From contig PWHN01000099.1 of NCBI GenBank assembly GCA_003554945.1, forward strand, positions 1 through 64,000: a stretch of 64,000 nt of DNA, read 5' to 3'. The notes beneath the pieces were generated by a model that was not told the origin of the DNA, ran no database searches, and saw nothing but the letters and a program-made list of their open reading frames with translations. Position 1 is the stretch's first letter, and every line of letters begins with the position of its first letter. The DNA is from a bacterium. Its GTDB lineage: Bacteria; T1Sed10-126. Position numbers and translations under genes: made by a program. This document shows, piece after piece, positions 42,358-49,620 of the stretch.

Positions 42358-42404
42358 CTTATATTAACAGCTTAACAGATATGCGGAAAGGGTTTGATCA
42401 AACC

Positions 42405-42878
42405 GTGAAAATTAAGTCGAAGCCCTACGGCGAAATTGAAATTGACAGGGATAAAATAGTTACAGTCCGAGGCGGACTGTTTGGGTTTGAAGACCAGGAG
42501 GAATACGTAATCATAGGAAGAGAGAGCGAACAGCCCTTTGAGTGGTTACAGGCGGTAAACGATCCCGACCTGGCTTTTGTTGTAGTGCCTCCTAACCTCA
42601 TACGACCGGATTACGAGCTTTCTATTCTGCCGGAAGATCTCAAGCAGATAGAAGCGGATTCGACCGACGATTTGATGCTTTATTCGATCGTGGTTGTGCC
42701 ACAAAATCCGGACGCGATGACAATTAACTTTCGCGGACCGGTAATAGTAAATCAGGAAAATTTTCTGGCCAAACAGGTGATTAACCAGGTAGATGAATAT
42801 ACGGTGCGTCATCGGGTTCTTGATGAGCTGGAAGCTTCCGGTCGGCAGGGACTGGTCGCGAAGGGCGGGAGCGAGTAA
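42405..42878 (+). CDS. fliW: Flagellar assembly factor FliW
   Basis: A 157-residue protein that binds flagellin and, when flagellin is exported, releases and inhibits CsrA, giving feedback on flagellin translation. The N-terminus [19 protein letters not shown], followed by [15 protein letters not shown], and the core [19 protein letters not shown] are family features. Start: the GTG at 42405 matches the usual FliW N-terminus and is preferred to an ATG at 42381. A perfect palindrome GGTTTGATCAAACC (42391-42404) fills the gap between GGAAAGG and this GTG; folding it would shorten an otherwise long spacer. The stop overlaps the csrA start (TAATG). Confidence 0.93.
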
Positions 42879-43129
42879 TGCTTGTTCTTACCCGAAAAGT
42901 TGACGAACGCGTTATGATTGGCGACGACATTGAGATTATGATTGTCGATCAGGACGGCGATCAGGTCAAACTGGGAATTGAAGCACCGCGTGAGATACCG
43001 ATTCATCGCCGCGAGGTTTATGAAGAAATCCAGAAAGAAAACATCGAAGCAGCCCGCGCAAGCGGGGAGGAGACCCGTTCTGTGGCAGAGTTTCTTAAAC
43101 AACAAAGTGAAGAAAAAAAAGAATCTTAA
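42878..43129 (+). CDS. csrA: Translational regulator CsrA
   Basis: An 83-residue RNA-binding homodimer that represses flagellin translation by covering GGA motifs at the ribosome binding site. [45 protein letters not shown] is canonical, with the RNA-contacting Arg44-like residue in IHRREVY. The C-terminal 20 residues are a charged tail. It overlaps fliW and lies immediately upstream of the flagellin genes, whose leaders carry matching hairpin targets (43641-43660, 45098-45117, 46381-46400, 48562-48581). Confidence 0.96.
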
Positions 43130-43137
43130 AAAAATAT

Positions 43138-43166
43138 TTGACAAACGGCGATTGATGTCCGATAAT
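43138..43166 (+). promoter_or_regulatory. Strong sigma-70-type promoter downstream of csrA
   Basis: TTGACA (43138-43143) and GATAAT (43161-43166) are exactly 17 bases apart. The -10 region also reads TCCGATAA, 7 of 8 with the sigma-28 -10, but no sigma-28 -35 is at the right distance. Transcription would start near 43173 and read through a GGA-rich segment and towards flagellin 1. Confidence 0.7.
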
Positions 43167-43172
43167 TAGATT

Positions 43173-43310
43173 GACATAAGAAAAAGTCAGCAAGGATGCT
43201 GGCTGGAGGACAATTTTTTCACATGGAGGTTTGATAATATTACACTTGTAAACTTAGCCTATTCTTGGTGTGCAGTCTCGGACTGCGCAGGCAGGGGTAG
43301 GTTTTTTTTG
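43173..43310 (+). ncRNA. GGA-rich leader or small RNA, possible CsrA target or sponge
   Basis: Just after the promoter a hairpin UCAGC-AAGGAU-GCUGG (43187-43202) shows GGA in the loop, with further GGA motifs at 43205-43210 (GGAGGA) and 43225-43227. A 9-bp hairpin with loop TCG (43269-43289) follows, then T8 at 43302-43309, 12 bases after the stem, an imperfect terminator. No reading frame is evident. It may be a small CsrA-binding RNA or simply the first part of the flagellin 1 leader. Confidence 0.4.
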
Positions 43311-43454
43311 TGCACCATGTTGTATACGCGCTTTTTTTGGGGCTCATGAGAGTTAAAGTTGGATTAGTAGTATTTGTAGTAACTCTGGATTGATCTTTTT
43401 TCTTTTTTGCTCTACGGGGTAAACGGTTCGACGTCATTTGACGGCCGGACTGAA

Positions 43455-43498
43455 GCTCTTTGACATTCAAATATAGTCGATAGGTTGAGACAGCCTGG
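43455..43498 (+). promoter_or_regulatory. Flagellin 1 leader: boxA-like element and 5' arm of long-range helix
   Basis: GCTCTTTGACA (43455-43465) matches the boxA antitermination element of rRNA leaders. After an AT-rich link the 5' arm (43473-43498) pairs with 44604-44628 beyond the stop codon: 25 pairs, of which 3 are G.U, with one bulged U (43486). The arms are 1.1 kb apart. Between the arm and the gene a further stem-loop is visible (CCGGTA 43502-43507 with TACCGG 43552-43557; GTTGT with ACAAC inside). Confidence 0.8.
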
Positions 43499-43640
43499 AC
43501 GCCGGTATGGTGGTTGTATCCTCCGCCGCTTTAGTGGGGAACAACTGCTGTTACCGGACTGTTTTACCACGTTTTTTTTACATCATTAGTGCTTGACTGC
43601 ACAGGACTATCAGTACAATTTAGCACAATCTTAGCACAAT

Positions 43641-43660
43641 TCGAATCAAGGACGATTCGA
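43641..43660 (+). promoter_or_regulatory. CsrA-type hairpin, flagellin 1 leader
   Basis: TCGAATC and GATTCGA form a 7-bp stem with loop AAGGAC. The GGA in a hairpin loop, preceded by CA, matches the CsrA binding preference. Ten bases further on AGGAGGG (43671-43677) offers a second GGA at the ribosome binding site, 13 bases before the ATG. Confidence 0.8.
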
Positions 43661-43689
43661 TCTTAACTCCAGGAGGGAGTGTTCTACCG

Positions 43690-44583
43690 ATGGGTGGTAT
43701 GTTTAGAATTAACACTAACGTTCAGGCTACATTTGCACAACGACAGTTACACAGAAGTTCTGGTGATCTTGACCAGGCGCAGGAGCGTCTGTCCAGTGGT
43801 TTACGTATTAACGTGGCTGCTGATGACGCCGCTGGACTGGCCATTGCTGAGAAATTGAGCATGGCCGGCCGTGGTCTTGACCAGGCGCAGTCTAACGCTC
43901 AGGACGGTATATCAGTACTTCAGACCGCCGAGGGTGGTCTTGAGTCTATTGGTGACGACCTGCAGCGGATGCGTGAGCTGGCTGTTCAGGCAGCTAACGA
44001 CAGCTTGACTGACGATGACCGTGAACTGATCCAGACTGAGATTTCTCAGCTGGTAGATGAGGTTGACCGAACCGCCTCCACGGTTCAGTTTAACCAGCGT
44101 CAACTGCTTACCAATCAATTTGGTGAAGTTGACGAGGCTGGACGAGCTACTGCTGGAGAGGCATCACTGACTTTCCACATTGGCGCTAACCGTGACGAGA
44201 CAATCACGGTGGCCATGGGAGACGGTCAAGCTATTCAGACGGCTACCTCGCAAGCGCTTGGTATTCGTGTCGACGACGCCCCGATAAGCGTTGAATCACG
44301 TGAGGGTGCTGAATCGGCGATCGAAACGGTTACCCAGGCGATTAACGAAGTTTCGGAAACTCGCGCTAACATTGGTGCCGTTCAGAACCGTCTCGAGGGA
44401 GCTGTTGACTTCCTGCAGATCCAGGGAGAGAACACCGAGGCTTCCGAGAGCGCGATTCGTGACGCTGACATTGCCGCGGAAGCGGTCAACCAGACCCGAG
44501 CTAACATCTTGACTCAAGCCGGTACTTCCGTGCTTGCACAGGCCCAGCAGACGCCGCAGATGGCGCTGCAGTTGCTCGGTTAA
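43690..44583 (+). CDS. hag: Flagellin 1
   Basis: Filament subunit of 297 residues. The N-terminal INTNVQATFAQRQLHRSSG, the LSSGLRINVAADDAAGLAIAEKL block and the C-terminal NQTRANILTQAGTSVLAQAQQ coil are standard; the middle is short, so only the D0/D1 core plus a small loop is present. It is the first of four flagellins and about as similar to flagellin 3 as a recent duplicate. Its mRNA has a boxA-like element, long-range 5'/3' helix arms and a CsrA-type hairpin. The 43130-43689 gap before it holds those elements and no gene. Confidence 0.96.
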   Translation: MGGMFRINTNVQATFAQRQLHRSSGDLDQAQERLSSGLRINVAADDAAGLAIAEKLSMAGRGLDQAQSNAQDGISVLQTAEGGLESIGDDLQRMRELAVQAANDSLTDDDRELIQTEISQLVDEVDRTASTVQFNQRQLLTNQFGEVDEAGRATAGEASLTFHIGANRDETITVAMGDGQAIQTATSQALGIRVDDAPISVESREGAESAIETVTQAINEVSETRANIGAVQNRLEGAVDFLQIQGENTEASESAIRDADIAAEAVNQTRANILTQAGTSVLAQAQQTPQMALQLLG

Positions 44584-44603
44584 CTTTTTTAGTTCTTTTT
44601 TAC

Positions 44604-44628
44604 CCGGGCTGTCTCGCCTATCGGCTAT
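44604..44628 (+). other. 3' arm of flagellin 1 long-range helix
   Basis: This segment, 20 bases beyond the flagellin 1 stop, is complementary to the leader segment 43473-43498. It is followed by TCTTTTATTTTTA, so the helix plus U-rich tail could also act as the 3' end of the mRNA. The arm is not self-complementary enough to be an ordinary terminator. Confidence 0.8.
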
Positions 44629-44690
44629 CTTTTATTTTTACGAAAAACTGCTGGTGCGGTTTATGCCACAGCGGATGGGAATGAGATGAA

Positions 44691-45080
44691 ATGAATCATG
44701 GGACCGGAGCGATTGAGGGACCCGAGTTTCAAAATAGTTTGATCCAAAATAATAATTTGAACAGAGCCGAAACTACGGCTGAAACAGACCGACCGGATAA
44801 CTCTGCCGGAGCAGCGGTCGAGCGACCGGTTGCTGAGACTACCGTAAGTGTAGAGGATCAGGCAGTTGCCGAAGCTGTTGAAGAACTCGATCAGGCGGCC
44901 GCCGAAGCCTCTTTTTACGGGATTGATTTTAATATCTTGCCCGATGACAACCTGGTCCAGGCACGGTTGATCAGCCAGGAGAATGAGGAGTTGATTCGCG
45001 CTATCCCGCCTGATGAACTGCTGGAAATAAGGCAGCGCGTTGACGCTTTCATAGGACTGTTGTTTGATGTGACAAGATAA
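44691..45080 (+). CDS. flaG: FlaG family protein
   Basis: A 129-residue protein with a disordered acidic N-terminal half and a C-terminal FlaG domain: FNILPDDNLVQARLISQENEELIRAIPPDELLEIRQRVDAFIGLLFD, where the IRxIPPxElL element is the signature. FlaG limits filament length or stabilises the filament and is commonly encoded next to flagellin. It lies 70 bases upstream of flagellin 2 and is probably co-transcribed with it. Confidence 0.85.
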   Translation: MNHGTGAIEGPEFQNSLIQNNNLNRAETTAETDRPDNSAGAAVERPVAETTVSVEDQAVAEAVEELDQAAAEASFYGIDFNILPDDNLVQARLISQENEELIRAIPPDELLEIRQRVDAFIGLLFDVTR

Positions 45081-45097
45081 CAAAACTTCATCGCCGC

Positions 45098-45117
45098 CCG
45101 GGTCACGGAAGACCTGG
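45098..45117 (+). promoter_or_regulatory. CsrA-type hairpin, flagellin 2 leader
   Basis: CCGGGTC and GACCTGG form a 7-bp stem (one G.U) around the loop ACGGAA, again with GGA in the loop. AGGAGGG follows at 45130-45136. The stem sequence is unrelated to the other three flagellin leaders, while the architecture is the same. Confidence 0.7.
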
Positions 45118-45149
45118 TTAAAAATCTCCAGGAGGGAGCTGAAGCCGCT

Positions 45150-46040
45150 ATGGGCGGTTTATTTCGTGTTAACACCAATACGCAGGCGACCTTTATTGAG
45201 CGCCAGCTCTATCGCAATACCCGGCAACTGGATCGGGCGCAGGAACGTCTGGCCAGTGGCTTCAGGATTAATCGGGCAGCTGACGATGCAGCCGGGCTGG
45301 CTATTTCTGAAAAGTTGCGCATGGCCGAGCGCGGCCTGAGTCAGGCTCAGGCCAACGCTCAGGACGGGATCTCACTCCTTCAGACTGCCGAAGGTGGTAT
45401 GGAGACAGTTACAGAAGATTTACAGAGAATTCGTGAGCTCAGCTTACAAGCGGCCAACGACAGTCTTACCGACTCCGATCGTGAATTAATTCAGGCTGAA
45501 ATAAATCAACTTGTCCAGGAGATAGACCGTACGGCCTCTACCGTGCAGTTTAACCAGCGTCAGCTGCTTAAAAATGATTTTGGAACTGTTGATGCTGGCG
45601 GTCGGGTCCAGGATGACGGCCGAGCTTCCCTTGCTTTCCACATTGGTGCCAACCGTAACGAAATTATCAGGGTTACTACAAACGAATTAGGAACTACTAC
45701 CTCACGTTCTTTGAACCTGAGAACCGAGGATACTTCGCTAAGTATCAGTACACGCGAGGCCGCCGAGTCGGCAATCGAAGTGGCTACCCGGGCAATTAAC
45801 CAGGTCTCCCGGCAGAGGGCTAATATTGGAGCACTTCAGAATCGACTCGAGGGTGCGGTCGATTTTCTCCAAATTCAAGAAGAAAATACTCAACGTGCCG
45901 ACAGCCGCATACGTGACGCTGACATCGCCCGGGAGACGATGAATATGACCCGCTCTCAAATTCTTGTCCAGGCCGGCACCTCGCTGCTTGCCCAGGCCCA
46001 GGAACTGCCCCGCACCATCCTCCAAATACTGGGCATCTAA
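45150..46040 (+). CDS. Flagellin 2
   Basis: A 296-residue flagellin with the typical termini (VNTNTQATFIERQLYRNTR; LASGFRINRAADDAAGLAISEKL; MTRSQILVQAGTSLLAQAQE) and a short centre. It is the most divergent of the four in the D1 helices and its C-terminal end reads PRTILQILGI instead of PQMALQLL. It follows flaG. Unlike its three paralogues it has no boxA-like element and no pairing arm on either side. Confidence 0.95.
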   Translation: MGGLFRVNTNTQATFIERQLYRNTRQLDRAQERLASGFRINRAADDAAGLAISEKLRMAERGLSQAQANAQDGISLLQTAEGGMETVTEDLQRIRELSLQAANDSLTDSDRELIQAEINQLVQEIDRTASTVQFNQRQLLKNDFGTVDAGGRVQDDGRASLAFHIGANRNEIIRVTTNELGTTTSRSLNLRTEDTSLSISTREAAESAIEVATRAINQVSRQRANIGALQNRLEGAVDFLQIQEENTQRADSRIRDADIARETMNMTRSQILVQAGTSLLAQAQELPRTILQILGI

Positions 46041-46250
46041 CTTTTTTCTTTTTTCTAAAGCTATCTTTGAAGTTTTTAGATTCCAGTTCCAGGTTTTAAC
46101 TCGCAACACGCAACACGCAATAAGGTTTATGGTTTTGAAGTTTGATTTCAACTTTAAACTAAAAACTATAAACTGGAAACTAATTTTATCCCGCAACTAC
46201 ACTTTTACACTTTCCCACTTTCTAACTTTCCCACTAACAAATTTCTCCAC
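46041..46250. other. AT-rich spacer after flagellin 2
   Basis: No gene. It contains short direct repeats (CGCAACA in tandem near 46101-46120; AAACTA-like words near 46155-46180) and, at 46201-46236, an inverted relative of the tandem repeat seen at 15.2 kb (CACTTTCCCACTTT...). Confidence 0.5.
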
Positions 46251-46277
46251 TCAAGATTTTTCCTCCGTAGTCGATAA
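46251..46277 (+). promoter_or_regulatory. Sigma-28-type promoter of flagellin 3
   Basis: TCAAGATT (46251-46258), 11 bases, GTCGATAA (46270-46277): 6 of 8 and 7 of 8 matches to the flagellar sigma consensus at the exact consensus spacing. Expected start near 46284, about 24 bases before the boxA-like element. Confidence 0.75.
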
Positions 46278-46307
46278 TTAAGAACAGGATTATTACGAGA
46301 CGACAGG

Positions 46308-46351
46308 GATCTTTGACATGTGAATACAGCCGGCGAACGGGGACCTGGCCC
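46308..46351 (+). promoter_or_regulatory. Flagellin 3 leader: boxA-like element and 5' arm of long-range helix
   Basis: GATCTTTGACA (46308-46318) is boxA-like. The 5' arm 46323-46351 pairs without interruption with 47350-47378 after the gene: 29 pairs, 28 Watson-Crick and a single G.U (46341 with 47360). The intervening distance is about 1 kb. Confidence 0.88.
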
Positions 46352-46380
46352 TTTTGTAGCATCAGTACGACCGTTGAACT

Positions 46381-46400
46381 TCGAATCAAGGATGATTCGA
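46381..46400 (+). promoter_or_regulatory. CsrA-type hairpin, flagellin 3 leader
   Basis: Same 7-bp stem as flagellin 1 (TCGAATC/GATTCGA) with loop AAGGAT. AGGAGGG follows (46413-46419), 13 bases before ATG. Confidence 0.8.
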
Positions 46401-46431
46401 TTCTAAAATTCCAGGAGGGAGTGTTCTAATT

Positions 46432-47331
46432 ATGGGAGGTCTATTTCGAATCAACACAAACGTGCAGGCCACGTTCTCTCAACGTCAACTGCACAGAAGT
46501 TCCGCTGATCTTGACAGAGCACAGGAGCGTTTGTCCAGCGGGTTAAGGATTAACGTCGCCGCAGACGATGCCGCAGGACTGGCTATTGCTGAGAAGTTAG
46601 AAATGGCTGGCCGCGGTTTAAGCCAAGCCCAGGACAACGCTCAGGACGGTATATCCGTCCTGCAAACCGCTGAGGGTGGTCTTGAATCCATTGGAGACGA
46701 CCTGCAGCGGATGCGTGAGCTGGCCGTGCAAGCTGCTAACGACAGTTTGACTGACGACGATCGTGAACTGATCCAGACTGAGATTTCTCAGCTGGTCGAT
46801 GAGATCGATCGCACAGCTTCCACGGTGCAGTTCAACCAGCGTCAGCTTTTAACCAACGAGTTTACAACCGTTGACGAATCTGGCGAGGCCCAAGAAGGTG
46901 AAGGCCCGGGTTCGCTTTCTTTTCACATTGGAGCGAACCGTGACGAGGTCATTACCGTGGACGTGGAAGACGACATTCAGACCGCAACTGCTACAGCACT
47001 CGGTATTCGCGACGCTGACACGGGAGAACCCGTGAGCGTTGAAACCCGAGAACTTGCCGAATCCACGATCCAAACCGTTTCCGAGGCGATTAACGAGGTC
47101 TCGGAAAGTCGGGCCAACATCGGTGCCGTTCAGAATCGGCTCGAAGGTGCCGTCGATTTTCTCCAGATTCAGTATGAGAATACCGAGGCATCGGAGAGCG
47201 CGATTCGTGACGCTGACATTGCCGAAGAAGCTGTTAACCAGACAAGGGCCAACATTTTGACCCAGGCCGGTACTTCCGTTCTTGGTCAGGCACAGCAAAC
47301 GCCACAGATGGCCCTGCAGCTTCTGCAGTAG
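46432..47331 (+). CDS. Flagellin 3
   Basis: A 299-residue flagellin very close to flagellin 1 in its ends (INTNVQATFSQRQLHRSSA; NQTRANILTQAGTSVLGQAQQ) with a slightly different acidic centre (VDVEDDIQTATATALGIRDA). It has its own sigma-28 promoter, boxA-like element, pairing arms and CsrA-type hairpin, so it is an independent unit. It is a probable major filament component along with flagellin 1. Confidence 0.96.
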   Translation: MGGLFRINTNVQATFSQRQLHRSSADLDRAQERLSSGLRINVAADDAAGLAIAEKLEMAGRGLSQAQDNAQDGISVLQTAEGGLESIGDDLQRMRELAVQAANDSLTDDDRELIQTEISQLVDEIDRTASTVQFNQRQLLTNEFTTVDESGEAQEGEGPGSLSFHIGANRDEVITVDVEDDIQTATATALGIRDADTGEPVSVETRELAESTIQTVSEAINEVSESRANIGAVQNRLEGAVDFLQIQYENTEASESAIRDADIAEEAVNQTRANILTQAGTSVLGQAQQTPQMALQLLQ

Positions 47332-47349
47332 TTTTTTACTGACCTTTCC

Positions 47350-47378
47350 GGGCCAGGTCTCCGTTCGCCGGCTGTATT
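47350..47378 (+). other. 3' arm of flagellin 3 long-range helix
   Basis: The 29-base segment begins 19 bases beyond the stop and is the full complement (one G.U) of leader segment 46323-46351. TTTTTG follows immediately. It lies between the stop of flagellin 3 and the ribosome binding site of the next gene. Confidence 0.88.
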
Positions 47379-47413
47379 TTTGAGCTGATTTTCTCCAAGG
47401 GAGTTTTATTTCC

Positions 47414-48376
47414 ATGAAAGTAACTTTTTCTTCTGAACAGCCGCTTGAAATTGAAGCGCCTGACCCCGAGCAGAAGCTGGGAGATTATATCGATTTTGTA
47501 AATAAAAAATTAAGCGATGTAAACCGGTTTATTTTTTCTGCCGAGGTCGACGGCGAACAAATTACAGAAGAACGCTGCCGGCAGAAATGTGATTCGTTTG
47601 AAGAATTAAAGCTGGAAGCCCGCTCTTTCGAAGAGATGACCATCGACACCATTGGCCGCTTAGGAGCTTATTGCCAGGAATACCTGGCTAAACTTCCACA
47701 GGTCATTGACGAGTGGAAAAAAAAGAGCGACGAAGAGAAAAATGCATTGCGTCGTCAAGTGCTTGAAGCTATAAATCTGGCCGGTAAGGTTCTGGACTCG
47801 ATTGATGATTTTCTTGACGTCGCAGTGGAAGAACATGACACAATAAAAAGCAGAACAGAAAAATTGGCGGGGCAGTTTCGTGAGGCAGGGAGAGAAGAAT
47901 TGAAGTCCTTGCTAACAGAGCAGGGGAGCGAATATTTTTCTGAATTATTTGACCACCTCAGAGCTGTACTGGATTACGTTGACGGGCAAAAAGATGCTGA
48001 GTCAGACCAGCTTTCACGTCTGGGCCGCCAGCTCGATGAACTGCACGAAGAACTAACCAACCTTATTAATAAATTCCAGGGCGGGGATATTGCCGACGCT
48101 TACGACCAATTGACTGATCGAGCTACTGAAATAGATGAATTGCTTGCTGTTATCGGCGGGTTGGACAAGACTGGTTTCCTCAAACGTAATTTCACACCGG
48201 AAACTCAGGACGAATTAAGTCAGGCCCATACAGAACTTCACCGCGGTCTCACCGAATTACTTCAGGCCGTGGAGGAGCGCGATCCGATAATGGTCTGCGA
48301 CATACTTGAGTATGAGTTTTTACCCTACCTTGAATCTCTCCAAAAACTCTTTGGCAGCGTCGACGAAGCGGAATAG
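47414..48376 (+). CDS. Unknown helical acidic protein between flagellin genes
   Basis: I do not recognise this 320-residue protein. The first 70 residues look like a small alpha/beta domain (MKVTFSSEQPLEIEAPDPEQ; NRFIFSAEVDGEQITEE) and the remainder is mostly charged amphipathic helix with heptad character. There is no signal peptide, membrane segment or cysteine-rich motif, apart from two Cys near 55-60. AAGGGAG precedes the ATG by 11 bases. Position between flagellins 3 and 4 suggests a flagellin-related cytoplasmic helper such as a chaperone or filament regulator, but that is inference. Confidence 0.75.
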   Translation: MKVTFSSEQPLEIEAPDPEQKLGDYIDFVNKKLSDVNRFIFSAEVDGEQITEERCRQKCDSFEELKLEARSFEEMTIDTIGRLGAYCQEYLAKLPQVIDEWKKKSDEEKNALRRQVLEAINLAGKVLDSIDDFLDVAVEEHDTIKSRTEKLAGQFREAGREELKSLLTEQGSEYFSELFDHLRAVLDYVDGQKDAESDQLSRLGRQLDELHEELTNLINKFQGGDIADAYDQLTDRATEIDELLAVIGGLDKTGFLKRNFTPETQDELSQAHTELHRGLTELLQAVEERDPIMVCDILEYEFLPYLESLQKLFGSVDEAE

Positions 48377-48381
48377 ATCGC

Positions 48382-48409
48382 TAAAGAATTTTTTTAATCA
48401 AACCGATAA
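48382..48409 (+). promoter_or_regulatory. Sigma-28-type promoter of flagellin 4
   Basis: TAAAGAAT (48382-48389) and ACCGATAA (48402-48409), 12 bases apart, one more than consensus. Expected start near 48416, about 33 bases before the boxA-like element. Confidence 0.65.
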
Positions 48410-48448
48410 TATAACTCAAAGCTAAGTACTATACCTCAATAAAACTAT

Positions 48449-48494
48449 GTTCTCTGACAATTAAATACGGCCGGTGTGACGTTTCCTCTCCCGG
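48449..48494 (+). promoter_or_regulatory. Flagellin 4 leader: boxA-like element and 5' arm of long-range helix
   Basis: GTTCTCTGACA (48449-48459) is boxA-like. The first block 48463-48476 pairs perfectly with 49607-49620 (14 bp); after an internal loop CCTCTC (48485-48490) pairs with GAGAGG (49596-49601) and CCGG (48491-48494) with CCGG (49591-49594), with one bulged base. Confidence 0.8.
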
Positions 48495-48537
48495 AGTTGT
48501 TCTTTTTTTAGCATTTATTTATCTTTTTTATCCTTTT

Positions 48538-48581
48538 TGGAACAGCTCTCTGCTGTTCCAATCGAATCAAGGACGATTCGA
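48538..48581 (+). promoter_or_regulatory. Hairpin plus CsrA-type hairpin, flagellin 4 leader
   Basis: A 9-bp stem (GGAACAGC with GCTGTTCC, loop TCTCT) at 48538-48560 is followed directly by the CsrA-type hairpin TCGAATC-AAGGAC-GATTCGA (48562-48581). The ribosome binding site GAGGGAGG (48595-48602) is 7 bases before ATG 48610. Confidence 0.75.
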
Positions 48582-48609
48582 TTACACTCCATAGAGGGAG
48601 GCATGTACT

Positions 48610-49578
48610 ATGTCAGAACTTTTTCGTATTCAGAATAACATTGCCGCTCAGTTTGCACAGCGGCAACTTAACCGCTCTGATTCTACATTAAACGAAGCCC
48701 AGGAAAGGCTTTCCAGTGGTTACAGAATTAACACCGCCTCGGACGATGCTGCCGGTCTTGCTATTTCGGAACGACTGCGAATGGCAGACCGAGGCCTCGG
48801 TCAGGCGGAGAGAAACGCACAGGACGCTATTTCAGTTCTGCAGACCGCCGAAGGAGGCCTGGAAACTATTGGCGATAACCTTCAGCGGATGCGCGAACTG
48901 GCCGTTCAAGCGGCTAACGACAGCCTGACCTGGGATGACCGGAGGTTGATCCAGACTGAGGTTGATCAGCTGGTCGAGGAGATCGATCGTAGTGCCTCGA
49001 GCGTGCAGTTCAACCAGCGACAGCTTCTTAAGAACGACTTTGGAACTGTCGACGCGTCTGGTGAAACTGAAGAAGGTTCGGGATCATTAGTCTTTCACGT
49101 CGGGGCTAACCGGGATGAAGTCATGGAGATTACAACCGATGAACTGCGAACCATGACTTCGGTTAACCTTGGTCTCCGACTCACGGAAGACCGGAATGAG
49201 ATCATTGAATATCCCGGCGGTACTCTCTTGTATGGCCCCGACGATCAGTATTATGCTCTCAGTCTTTACCGGGACTCAGCCGGTAATTTGGATCGTAATG
49301 CTGCTGAATCCGCTATCGAGCGGATTACCCGGGCCATTGACCAGGTTTCAGACTCGAGAGCACGAATTGGTGCTGTTCAGAACCGTGTTGAGTCTACTAT
49401 TGACTTCCTGCAACTTCAGCAGGAGAACACGCAGGCTTCTGAAAGCAGAATTCGTGACGCTGATTTGGCGGAAGAGTCCGTCCGACGGACTCAAGCCGAC
49501 ATCCTGATGCAGGCCGGTACTTCCGTGCTTGCCCAGGCTAATCAGCAGCCTCAACTGGCATTACAGTTGTTGGCTTAG
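48610..49578 (+). CDS. Flagellin 4
   Basis: A 322-residue flagellin; ends IQNNIAAQFAQRQLNRSD, LSSGYRINTASDDAAGLAISERL and RRTQADILMQAGTSVLAQANQQPQLALQLLA are typical. The centre is about 25 residues longer than in the others (IIEYPGGTLLYGPDDQYYAL). It has its own sigma-28-type promoter, boxA-like element, pairing arms and CsrA-type hairpin. It is likely a minor or position-specific filament subunit, though this is not testable by eye. Confidence 0.95.
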   Translation: MSELFRIQNNIAAQFAQRQLNRSDSTLNEAQERLSSGYRINTASDDAAGLAISERLRMADRGLGQAERNAQDAISVLQTAEGGLETIGDNLQRMRELAVQAANDSLTWDDRRLIQTEVDQLVEEIDRSASSVQFNQRQLLKNDFGTVDASGETEEGSGSLVFHVGANRDEVMEITTDELRTMTSVNLGLRLTEDRNEIIEYPGGTLLYGPDDQYYALSLYRDSAGNLDRNAAESAIERITRAIDQVSDSRARIGAVQNRVESTIDFLQLQQENTQASESRIRDADLAEESVRRTQADILMQAGTSVLAQANQQPQLALQLLA

Positions 49579-49590
49579 AAAGAATTTTCA

Positions 49591-49620
49591 CCGGCGAGAG
49601 GTTCGCCACCGGCCGTATTT
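49591..49620 (+). other. 3' arm of flagellin 4 long-range helix
   Basis: Blocks CCGG, GAGAGG and a final 14-base block are complementary, in reverse order, to the leader blocks 48463-48494. The arm starts 12 bases after the stop; CTTTCCTTATTTTC follows. Confidence 0.8.

Follow-up and report, generated by a model that had tools for sequence, protein, structure and literature searches.

Flagellin mRNAs with an rRNA-type boxA and a leader-trailer helix: a putative transcription-and-closure module in a bacterial flagellin cluster

The 64,000-nucleotide (nt) stretch analysed here (hereafter the window; positions 1 to 64,000, forward strand, of contig PWHN01000099.1, GenBank assembly GCA_003554945.1) contains four flagellin genes, g1 to g4, and raises the question why the leaders of g1, g3 and g4 are complementary to a segment beyond their own stop codons, as noticed in a first-pass annotation that did not list g2. 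Pairing of a leader with a trailer behind a boxA element is usually seen as a device of ribosomal RNA (rRNA) operons (rrn). We propose that these flagellin messenger RNAs (mRNAs) use an rRNA-type transcription-and-closure module and would be made and closed like pre-rRNA, a reading to which the sequence evidence leads us to assign a probability of about 0.66. That they share the architecture of pre-rRNA is very probable.

Each leader arm pairs with its own trailer arm

The arms of the three closing helices are located as follows, each identified by pairing score and arm alignment:

43469-43498, + strand: leader (5') arm of g1
44604-44632, + strand: trailer (3') arm of g1, adjoined 3' by a U-rich stretch
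46322-46351, + strand: leader (5') arm of g3
47350-47379, + strand: trailer (3') arm of g3, adjoined 3' by a U-rich stretch
48463-48494, + strand: leader (5') arm of g4, also identified by covariation
49591-49620, + strand: trailer (3') arm of g4, adjoined 3' by a U-rich stretch

The g1 helix comprises 25 pairs (22 Watson-Crick and three G.U) with one bulge, the g3 helix 29 continuous pairs (28 Watson-Crick and one G.U) and the g4 helix 27 Watson-Crick pairs in three blocks with two mismatches; the arm coordinates and pair counts of the first-pass annotation were right to the base. The maximal arms bracket ~1.0-1.1 kilobases (kb) each. Trailer arms start 12-20 nt past the stop codon, and leader arms end 191 (g1), 80 (g3) and 115 nt (g4) before the start codon. 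The Shine-Dalgarno sequences lie at least 60 nt 3' of the leader arms and are not covered by the pairing. The earlier suggestion that the helix hides both ends of the mRNA does not hold for the 5' end, where the boxA element described below and tens of leader bases remain outside the helix.

None of 1000 dinucleotide shuffles of the trailer matched the observed pairing score for g1, g3 or g4, which correspond to z scores of 8.2, 15.0 and 7.1, respectively. When the leaders of ten flagellin genes were scored against their trailers in all combinations, the only ones to stand out were g1, g3, g4 and B4 (the ortholog of g4 in genome G001), each with its own trailer; the best trailer for each of the g1, g3 and g4 leaders is its own and no pairing with the others was found, in agreement with the earlier observation that the arms differ between genes yet each fits its own partner. 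Furthermore, g3 was the top scorer in a leader-trailer scan of 239 genes (~360 kb of the window's genome), in which the genes scoring above or near g1 and g4 mostly contain simple or dispersed repeats, e.g. CCCCCTTGAGGGGGG. Intergenic copies of a dispersed CCCCCTTTGAGGGGGG-type repeat (loci L102, L104, L109 and L170 of this genome) were the main source of false positives in such scans. In the minimum-free-energy structure of each full-length predicted mRNA, 25 of 26 (g1), 29 of 29 (g3) and 27 of 32 (g4) arm bases pair with the opposite arm, and shuffling of the 5' arm costs the whole-mRNA fold ~11-31 kcal/mol. The leader-trailer helices are not a product of chance.

The phylum of the window's organism is sampled by two genomes, that of the window (G000) and G001. 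B4 is split over contigs C195 and C10 of G001; its leader was linked to its trailer by synteny, given that argS is the downstream neighbour in both genomes and that the protein lacks only about ten residues. The first 14 pairs of the g4 helix are conserved in B4, which pairs AATACGGTCGGTG with CACCGACCGTATT where g4 pairs AATACGGCCGGTG with CACCGGCCGTATT, a double change from C-G to U-A. Across the aligned 16 base pairs (bp) of g1, g3, g4 and B4, the paired fraction of cells is 93.8% and falls to 37-50% after sliding, eight of the 16 pairs are altered on both sides, and covariation as good as observed did not occur in any of 500 shuffles. The first-pass annotation had proposed RNA-level pairing under selection and had named covariation of the arms and complementarity in a close relative as checks; both were run, and compensatory changes across paralogs and genera bear the proposal out. 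The feature is RNA-level and under selection.

A boxA element precedes each leader arm

Directly 5' of each leader arm, and overlapping it slightly, lies an element of the form TCTTTGACA-N3-RAATA:

43457-43473, + strand: boxA-like element of g1, TCTTTGACATTCAAATA (exact pattern; rrn-leader matrix rank 2)
46310-46326, + strand: boxA-like element of g3, TCTTTGACATGTGAATA (exact pattern; rrn-leader matrix rank 3)
48451-48467, + strand: boxA-like element of g4, TCTCTGACAATTAAATA (exact pattern; rrn-leader matrix rank 1)

The elements begin 233 (g1), 122 (g3) and 159 nt (g4) upstream of the start codon, and the corresponding element of B4 reads TCTTTGAAAATTGAATA. A position weight matrix whose 15 sites all come from rrn leaders in other bacteria, with no flagellin included, places g4, g1 and g3, in this order, at the top of the 725,820 positions of the window's genome; the matrix is approximate, as some of its sites are weak. 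Across the complete sequences of both genomes, G000 and G001, exact matches to CTYTGAMANNNRAATAYRG are confined to the four helix-bearing flagellin leaders. Allowing up to one mismatch to TCTTTGAMANNNNAATA gives ~30 sites in both genomes, of which the flagellin sites alone have a closing helix, that of the G001 site near a contig end having been scored after joining two contigs; one further near-boxA site with z >4 is a dispersed GC repeat. The near-boxA site on contig C83 of the window's genome (L144) has no closing helix and appears to be a chance match. Likewise, the leader-trailer test found no closing helix in any of the boxA-less flagellins of the two genomes with a testable leader, namely g2, which serves as an internal negative control (45150-46040, + strand), B1 and those on contigs C112, C100, C82 and C94.

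The rrn leaders of other bacteria carry TGCTCTTTGACAATTATATAGCGCGC, TGTTCTTTGACAAAGGAATAGCGTGC, TGTTCTTTGAAAGTTAAATAGTG, CGGTCTTTGACAGGAGAATAAGG and others. In several of those with both 16S ends present, the 16S leader-trailer helix begins within or directly after boxA (L113, L116, L119, L120 and L123). An Rfam scan of the window gave no match. By sequence, the flagellin-leader element is an rrn-type boxA, to which NusB-S10 is predicted to bind. Thus, the arms reported earlier stand, though not as the stand-alone features they were taken for: the rRNA-type boxA before each 5' arm points to rrn-style antitermination combined with leader-trailer pairing. As in rrn, the leader arm lies within or after boxA and the trailer arm past the enclosed RNA; the enclosed RNA is a flagellin mRNA and not 16S or 23S rRNA, and the module therefore would work like, but is not, an rrn leader.

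The module recurs in a second, unrelated lineage

A survey covered 139 flagellins taken from a search across 386 genomes, and in it boxA plus helix appeared just once more, on a flagellin gene of genome G133 and its ortholog in G270. These represent two genera, are the only sampled genomes of their order, and belong to a phylum unrelated to that of the window's organism. Both flagellin leaders read TATTTGACAATTAAATAATAA; the arms behind this boxA are almost wholly different between the two genera (AAATCCGCGACGCGGCAACGGCAA vs GCCAAACCCCTGAGAGGTTAACCGG), and each fits its own trailer (z 5-8). Other flagellins tested in G133 and G270 have neither boxA nor helix. The rrn operon of G133 is assembled, with GATATTTGAAAAAATAGCCCGGATC in the 16S leader, GATCCGGGCTTTCTT in the trailer and TGCTATTTGAAAATTGAATATT before the 23S gene, and its 16S leader-trailer helix lies right behind boxA. 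The rRNA and flagellin transcripts of G133 thus have a variant boxA (TATTTGA) and a geometry in common, which we regard as the strongest single argument from sequence for the element being boxA.

The trailer arms of G133 and G270 are further from the stop codon than those of the window genes and lie behind a strong local hairpin. This hairpin, between stop codon and trailer arm (L197, 2245-2310; L198, ~2340-2380), is very stable (z -6.2 and -4.5), and the polymerase must therefore cross it to make the trailer. Within repeated intergenic DNA of G270, AATGTTATTTGAAAATTGAATATATT also occurs twice at a spacing of 612 nt (L292 on contig C300, ~1517 and ~2129, minus strand). Both copies match boxA; they belong to no Rfam family and have a weak helix at most (best z 3.2).

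A tandem flagellin of G018 and G165, two genomes of the same genus (L010, L176, L217 and L219), has a closing helix without boxA. Here, TCAGGGACCCCC(A/G)TAG(T/C)ATAC pairs with GTA(A/G)CTATGCGGGGTCCCTGA ~63 nt 5' of the start codon, and the trailer is followed by a U-tract. This is closure without boxA in a third lineage.

Organization of the flagellin cluster

The cluster is preceded by fliW and csrA, and flaG sits between g1 and g2. In other bacteria, the fliW product antagonises CsrA and the csrA product is a translational repressor of flagellin.

42381-42878, + strand: fliW (PF02623, E 1.2e-35)
42878-43129, + strand: csrA (PF02599, E 1.6e-25)
43690-44583, + strand: flagellin g1, within the closed loop (open reading frame; Flagellin_N match at 43708-44118)
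46432-47331, + strand: flagellin g3, within the closed loop (Pfam Flagellin_N and Flagellin_C)
48610-49578, + strand: flagellin g4, within the closed loop (Pfam Flagellin_N and Flagellin_C)
46251-46277, + strand: sigma-28-type promoter of g3, TCAAGATT-N11-GTCGATAA (consensus scan)
48382-48409, + strand: sigma-28-type promoter of g4, TAAAGAAT-N12-ACCGATAA (consensus scan)
43641-43660, + strand: CsrA-site-like hairpin of g1 with AAGGA in the loop (fold)
43666-43680, + strand: hairpin of g1 with the Shine-Dalgarno sequence in the loop (fold)
46381-46400, + strand: CsrA-site-like hairpin of g3 (fold)
46408-46422, + strand: Shine-Dalgarno hairpin of g3 (fold)
48560-48583, + strand: CsrA-site-like hairpin of g4 (fold)
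48587-48600, + strand: Shine-Dalgarno hairpin of g4 (fold)

The putative sigma-28-type promoters 5' of the leader arms support the placement of both arms inside the g3 and g4 transcripts, and the consensus scan also identified such a promoter for B4 (TAAAGTTT-N12-ACCGATAA). A sigma-28 -10 box within the 5' arm itself (GTCGATAG in g1) was rejected given these promoters further upstream of g3, g4 and B4 and the match to boxA. The promoter scan gave no clear promoter for g1; the nearest is TTGACA-17-GATAAT at 43138, from which g1 is separated by a terminator-like hairpin at ~43258-43320 (read by eye).

The stretch between csrA and the first flagellin is conserved in both genomes (window 43138-43320; L047 ~3450-3280, minus strand). 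It comprises the TTGACA-17-GATAAT site (in the window's genome), a hairpin GCAAGGATGC, TTTCACATGGAGGTTTGATAAT and then a terminator-like AGCCTATTC...GTAGG-T run. It may specify a small RNA of ~140 nt that binds CsrA, or else serve g1 as a regulated leader. Between g3 and g4 (47414-48376), a conserved 320-residue coiled-coil-like protein without a confident Pfam family is encoded, which is also present in G001 (L047 1419-454, minus strand); its position suggests a flagellar role.

Every leader folds into two hairpins, one presenting GGA in the loop and the other carrying the Shine-Dalgarno sequence, which we take to correspond to the two CsrA sites of Bacillus subtilis hag. Together with the adjoining fliW and csrA, these predicted CsrA sites match the pattern of FliW-CsrA-regulated flagellins.

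Comparison with known systems

The closest likeness is to the pre-16S and pre-23S portions of rrn operons, with which the flagellin module shares the boxA sequence, an arm within or after boxA, a partner just past the enclosed RNA and a loop of >1 kb (PMC10250234). Unlike rrn, it encloses a coding mRNA with a Shine-Dalgarno sequence and CsrA-type hairpins, has a sigma-28-type promoter, and no boxB was seen. A boxA in the 5' untranslated region (UTR) of a coding gene, as in the flagellins, has been described for the Nus factor complex targets suhB and CKO_00699, and the suhB boxA represses translation of suhB (PMC5725501). The search for boxA in that study was limited to the 50 nt nearest the gene start, whereas the elements of g1, g3 and g4 lie 122-233 nt upstream and are accompanied by a 5'-3' helix; no leader-trailer helix is reported there for the boxA-bearing mRNAs, and 'flagell' is absent from its main text.

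The claim of the first-pass annotation that no system of this kind had been described was too strong. In the type I toxin mRNAs hok and aapA1/aapA3, a 5'-3' long-distance interaction closes the mRNA and sequesters the Shine-Dalgarno sequence until it is opened by 3' cleavage (PMC6733600), and in icaR of Staphylococcus aureus the 5' and 3' UTRs pair via a UCCCCUG motif on the Shine-Dalgarno sequence, with destabilisation via RNase III (PMC3868564). The flagellin mRNAs resemble the toxin mRNAs in the pairing of leader and 3' end, and a very stable transcript would be a further parallel; like icaR, they are coding mRNAs with paired UTRs. Unlike the toxin mRNAs, they have a free Shine-Dalgarno sequence, a coding sequence of 0.8-1 kb and a boxA, and unlike icaR their helices span 25-30 bp well 5' of the Shine-Dalgarno sequence, which the 3' arm thus does not sequester. 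The FliW-CsrA control of B. subtilis hag offers a likeness of another kind, in the adjoining fliW-csrA and the two GGA-containing hairpins before the start codon; to our knowledge, neither boxA nor long-range pairing is part of it. A full-text search, which most subscription papers lie outside, found no report of boxA with leader-trailer closure on an mRNA and returned the rRNA paper only; for boxA and antitermination combined with flagellin it gave two reviews, each mentioning flagellin once. Closed bacterial mRNAs are therefore already known, and the combination of boxA with leader-trailer closure on an mRNA appears to be new.

Proposed mechanism

According to the model for rrn, NusB on boxA retains the leader where RNA leaves the polymerase until the trailer emerges (PMC10250234). 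The parts that such a model needs are all present in the flagellin transcripts, namely boxA, a leader arm immediately behind boxA and, past the stop codon, a trailer arm, and by analogy we moderately favour tethering here as well. Transcription would start at the sigma-28-type promoter and boxA would be transcribed ~25-35 nt past the expected start. Binding of NusB/S10 to this boxA would then tether the leader to the elongating polymerase, in line with the proposal for pre-16S rRNA, while the coding sequence is looped out and the emerging trailer arm pairs with the anchored leader arm. The product would hold the coding sequence, the CsrA sites and the free Shine-Dalgarno sequence inside a loop closed by 14-30 bp, and RNase III may trim the helix as it does in pre-rRNA. 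Protection of the end and stabilisation of the mRNA by the helix are plausible consequences.

A physiological role in guarding CsrA-repressed, untranslated flagellin mRNA is possible, and we offer it tentatively, at odds clearly below even. CsrA would hold the mRNA untranslated until FliW releases it, and an untranslated mRNA of ~1.1 kb, without shielding ribosomes, would, like rRNA, be open to attack by Rho and nucleases. The likeliest benefit would be full-length, end-protected and abundant flagellin mRNA despite the CsrA block, through a termination-resistant, boxA-modified polymerase and a closed end.

Several observations weigh against the rRNA-type module. In Escherichia coli, the suhB boxA leads to repression and Rho termination (PMC5725501), and boxA alone is for this reason no proof of antitermination. 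No rRNA genes are assembled in G000 or in G001, its one relative, so that the identity of boxA in these genomes rests on other bacteria and G133. The second segments of the g4 helix, like those of B4, compete with local hairpins, and B4, the one G001 flagellin ortholog open to testing, which has boxA and helix, was joined by synteny. The csrA-proximal flagellin of G001 lacks the module, as do most of the 139 surveyed flagellins, and the module is therefore dispensable.

Alternative explanations

The best rival, which we consider unlikely but which is compatible with an rRNA-type module, is a split intrinsic terminator: the trailer arm would be its 3' half and the 5' half would lie 1.1 kb upstream, the polymerase would be freed and the 3' end set once the two halves pair at the U-rich stretch, and boxA would only keep the 5' half near. 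A U-rich stretch does abut the trailer arm in the window genes, B4 and G133, no convincing local terminator follows g1, g3 or g4, and the boxA-less closing helix of G018 and G165 is followed by AAUUUUU. Against this, g2 is also followed by U-rich stretches without a hairpin, a strong local hairpin precedes the trailer arm in G133 and G270, and the covarying helix is much longer than a terminator requires. An intrinsic terminator, moreover, normally needs a local hairpin within seconds, and the g1 and g3 trailer arms form no local GC-rich hairpin directly before the U-tract.

Less probable again is 5'-3' closure as a control of decay or repression, in which the helix would be an RNase III substrate or the mRNA would be inert until cut at its 3' end. 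Helices of 25-30 bp are plausible substrates of RNase III, and both icaR (PMC3868564) and the type I toxin mRNAs (PMC6733600) provide precedents; the flagellin arms, however, end 80-191 nt before the start codon and leave the Shine-Dalgarno sequence uncovered, and the boxA before every closing helix of both lineages would be left unexplained.

Reading the TTTGACA element as the -35 box of a promoter, instead of as boxA, is very improbable. Although the elements of g1, g3, G133 and G270 contain TTGACA, no -10 hexamer follows at 16-18 nt, where the promoter scan lists no promoter, sigma-28-type promoters lie upstream of g3, g4 and B4, conservation runs on through RAATA as in rrn boxA regions, and the G001 copy reads TTTGAAA. 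Inverted repeats acting as DNA, such as an invertible flagellin cassette or the end of a mobile element, are scarcely credible, since the arms, while forming inverted repeats around each gene, are gene-specific and imperfect with G.U pairs and a bulge rather than identical, covary, match their own partner only and always follow a coding-strand boxA, and no recombinase gene was seen among the open reading frames read around the cluster, where no systematic search was made.

Implications

If flagellin mRNAs are indeed made and closed like pre-rRNA, a maturation route of rRNA would serve the message encoding the flagellum's most abundant structural protein. In E. coli, the leader-trailer helix is essential for 30S biogenesis (PMC10250234). 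That two unrelated lineages have both rRNA devices on flagellin mRNAs, spaced as in rRNA, suggests that the module is portable. At a little under even odds, these transcripts would represent a class of mRNAs produced by a boxA-loaded, rRNA-type polymerase complex with the leader tied to the 3' end, closed, Rho-resistant and independent of translation, a class that originated or persisted separately in two or more phyla. As natural constructs, they uncouple antitermination and tethering from ribosome assembly, and the question whether boxA holds the leader until the trailer emerges therefore becomes testable on a simple mRNA. They also hint at how cells may accumulate full-length flagellin mRNA while CsrA bars its translation.

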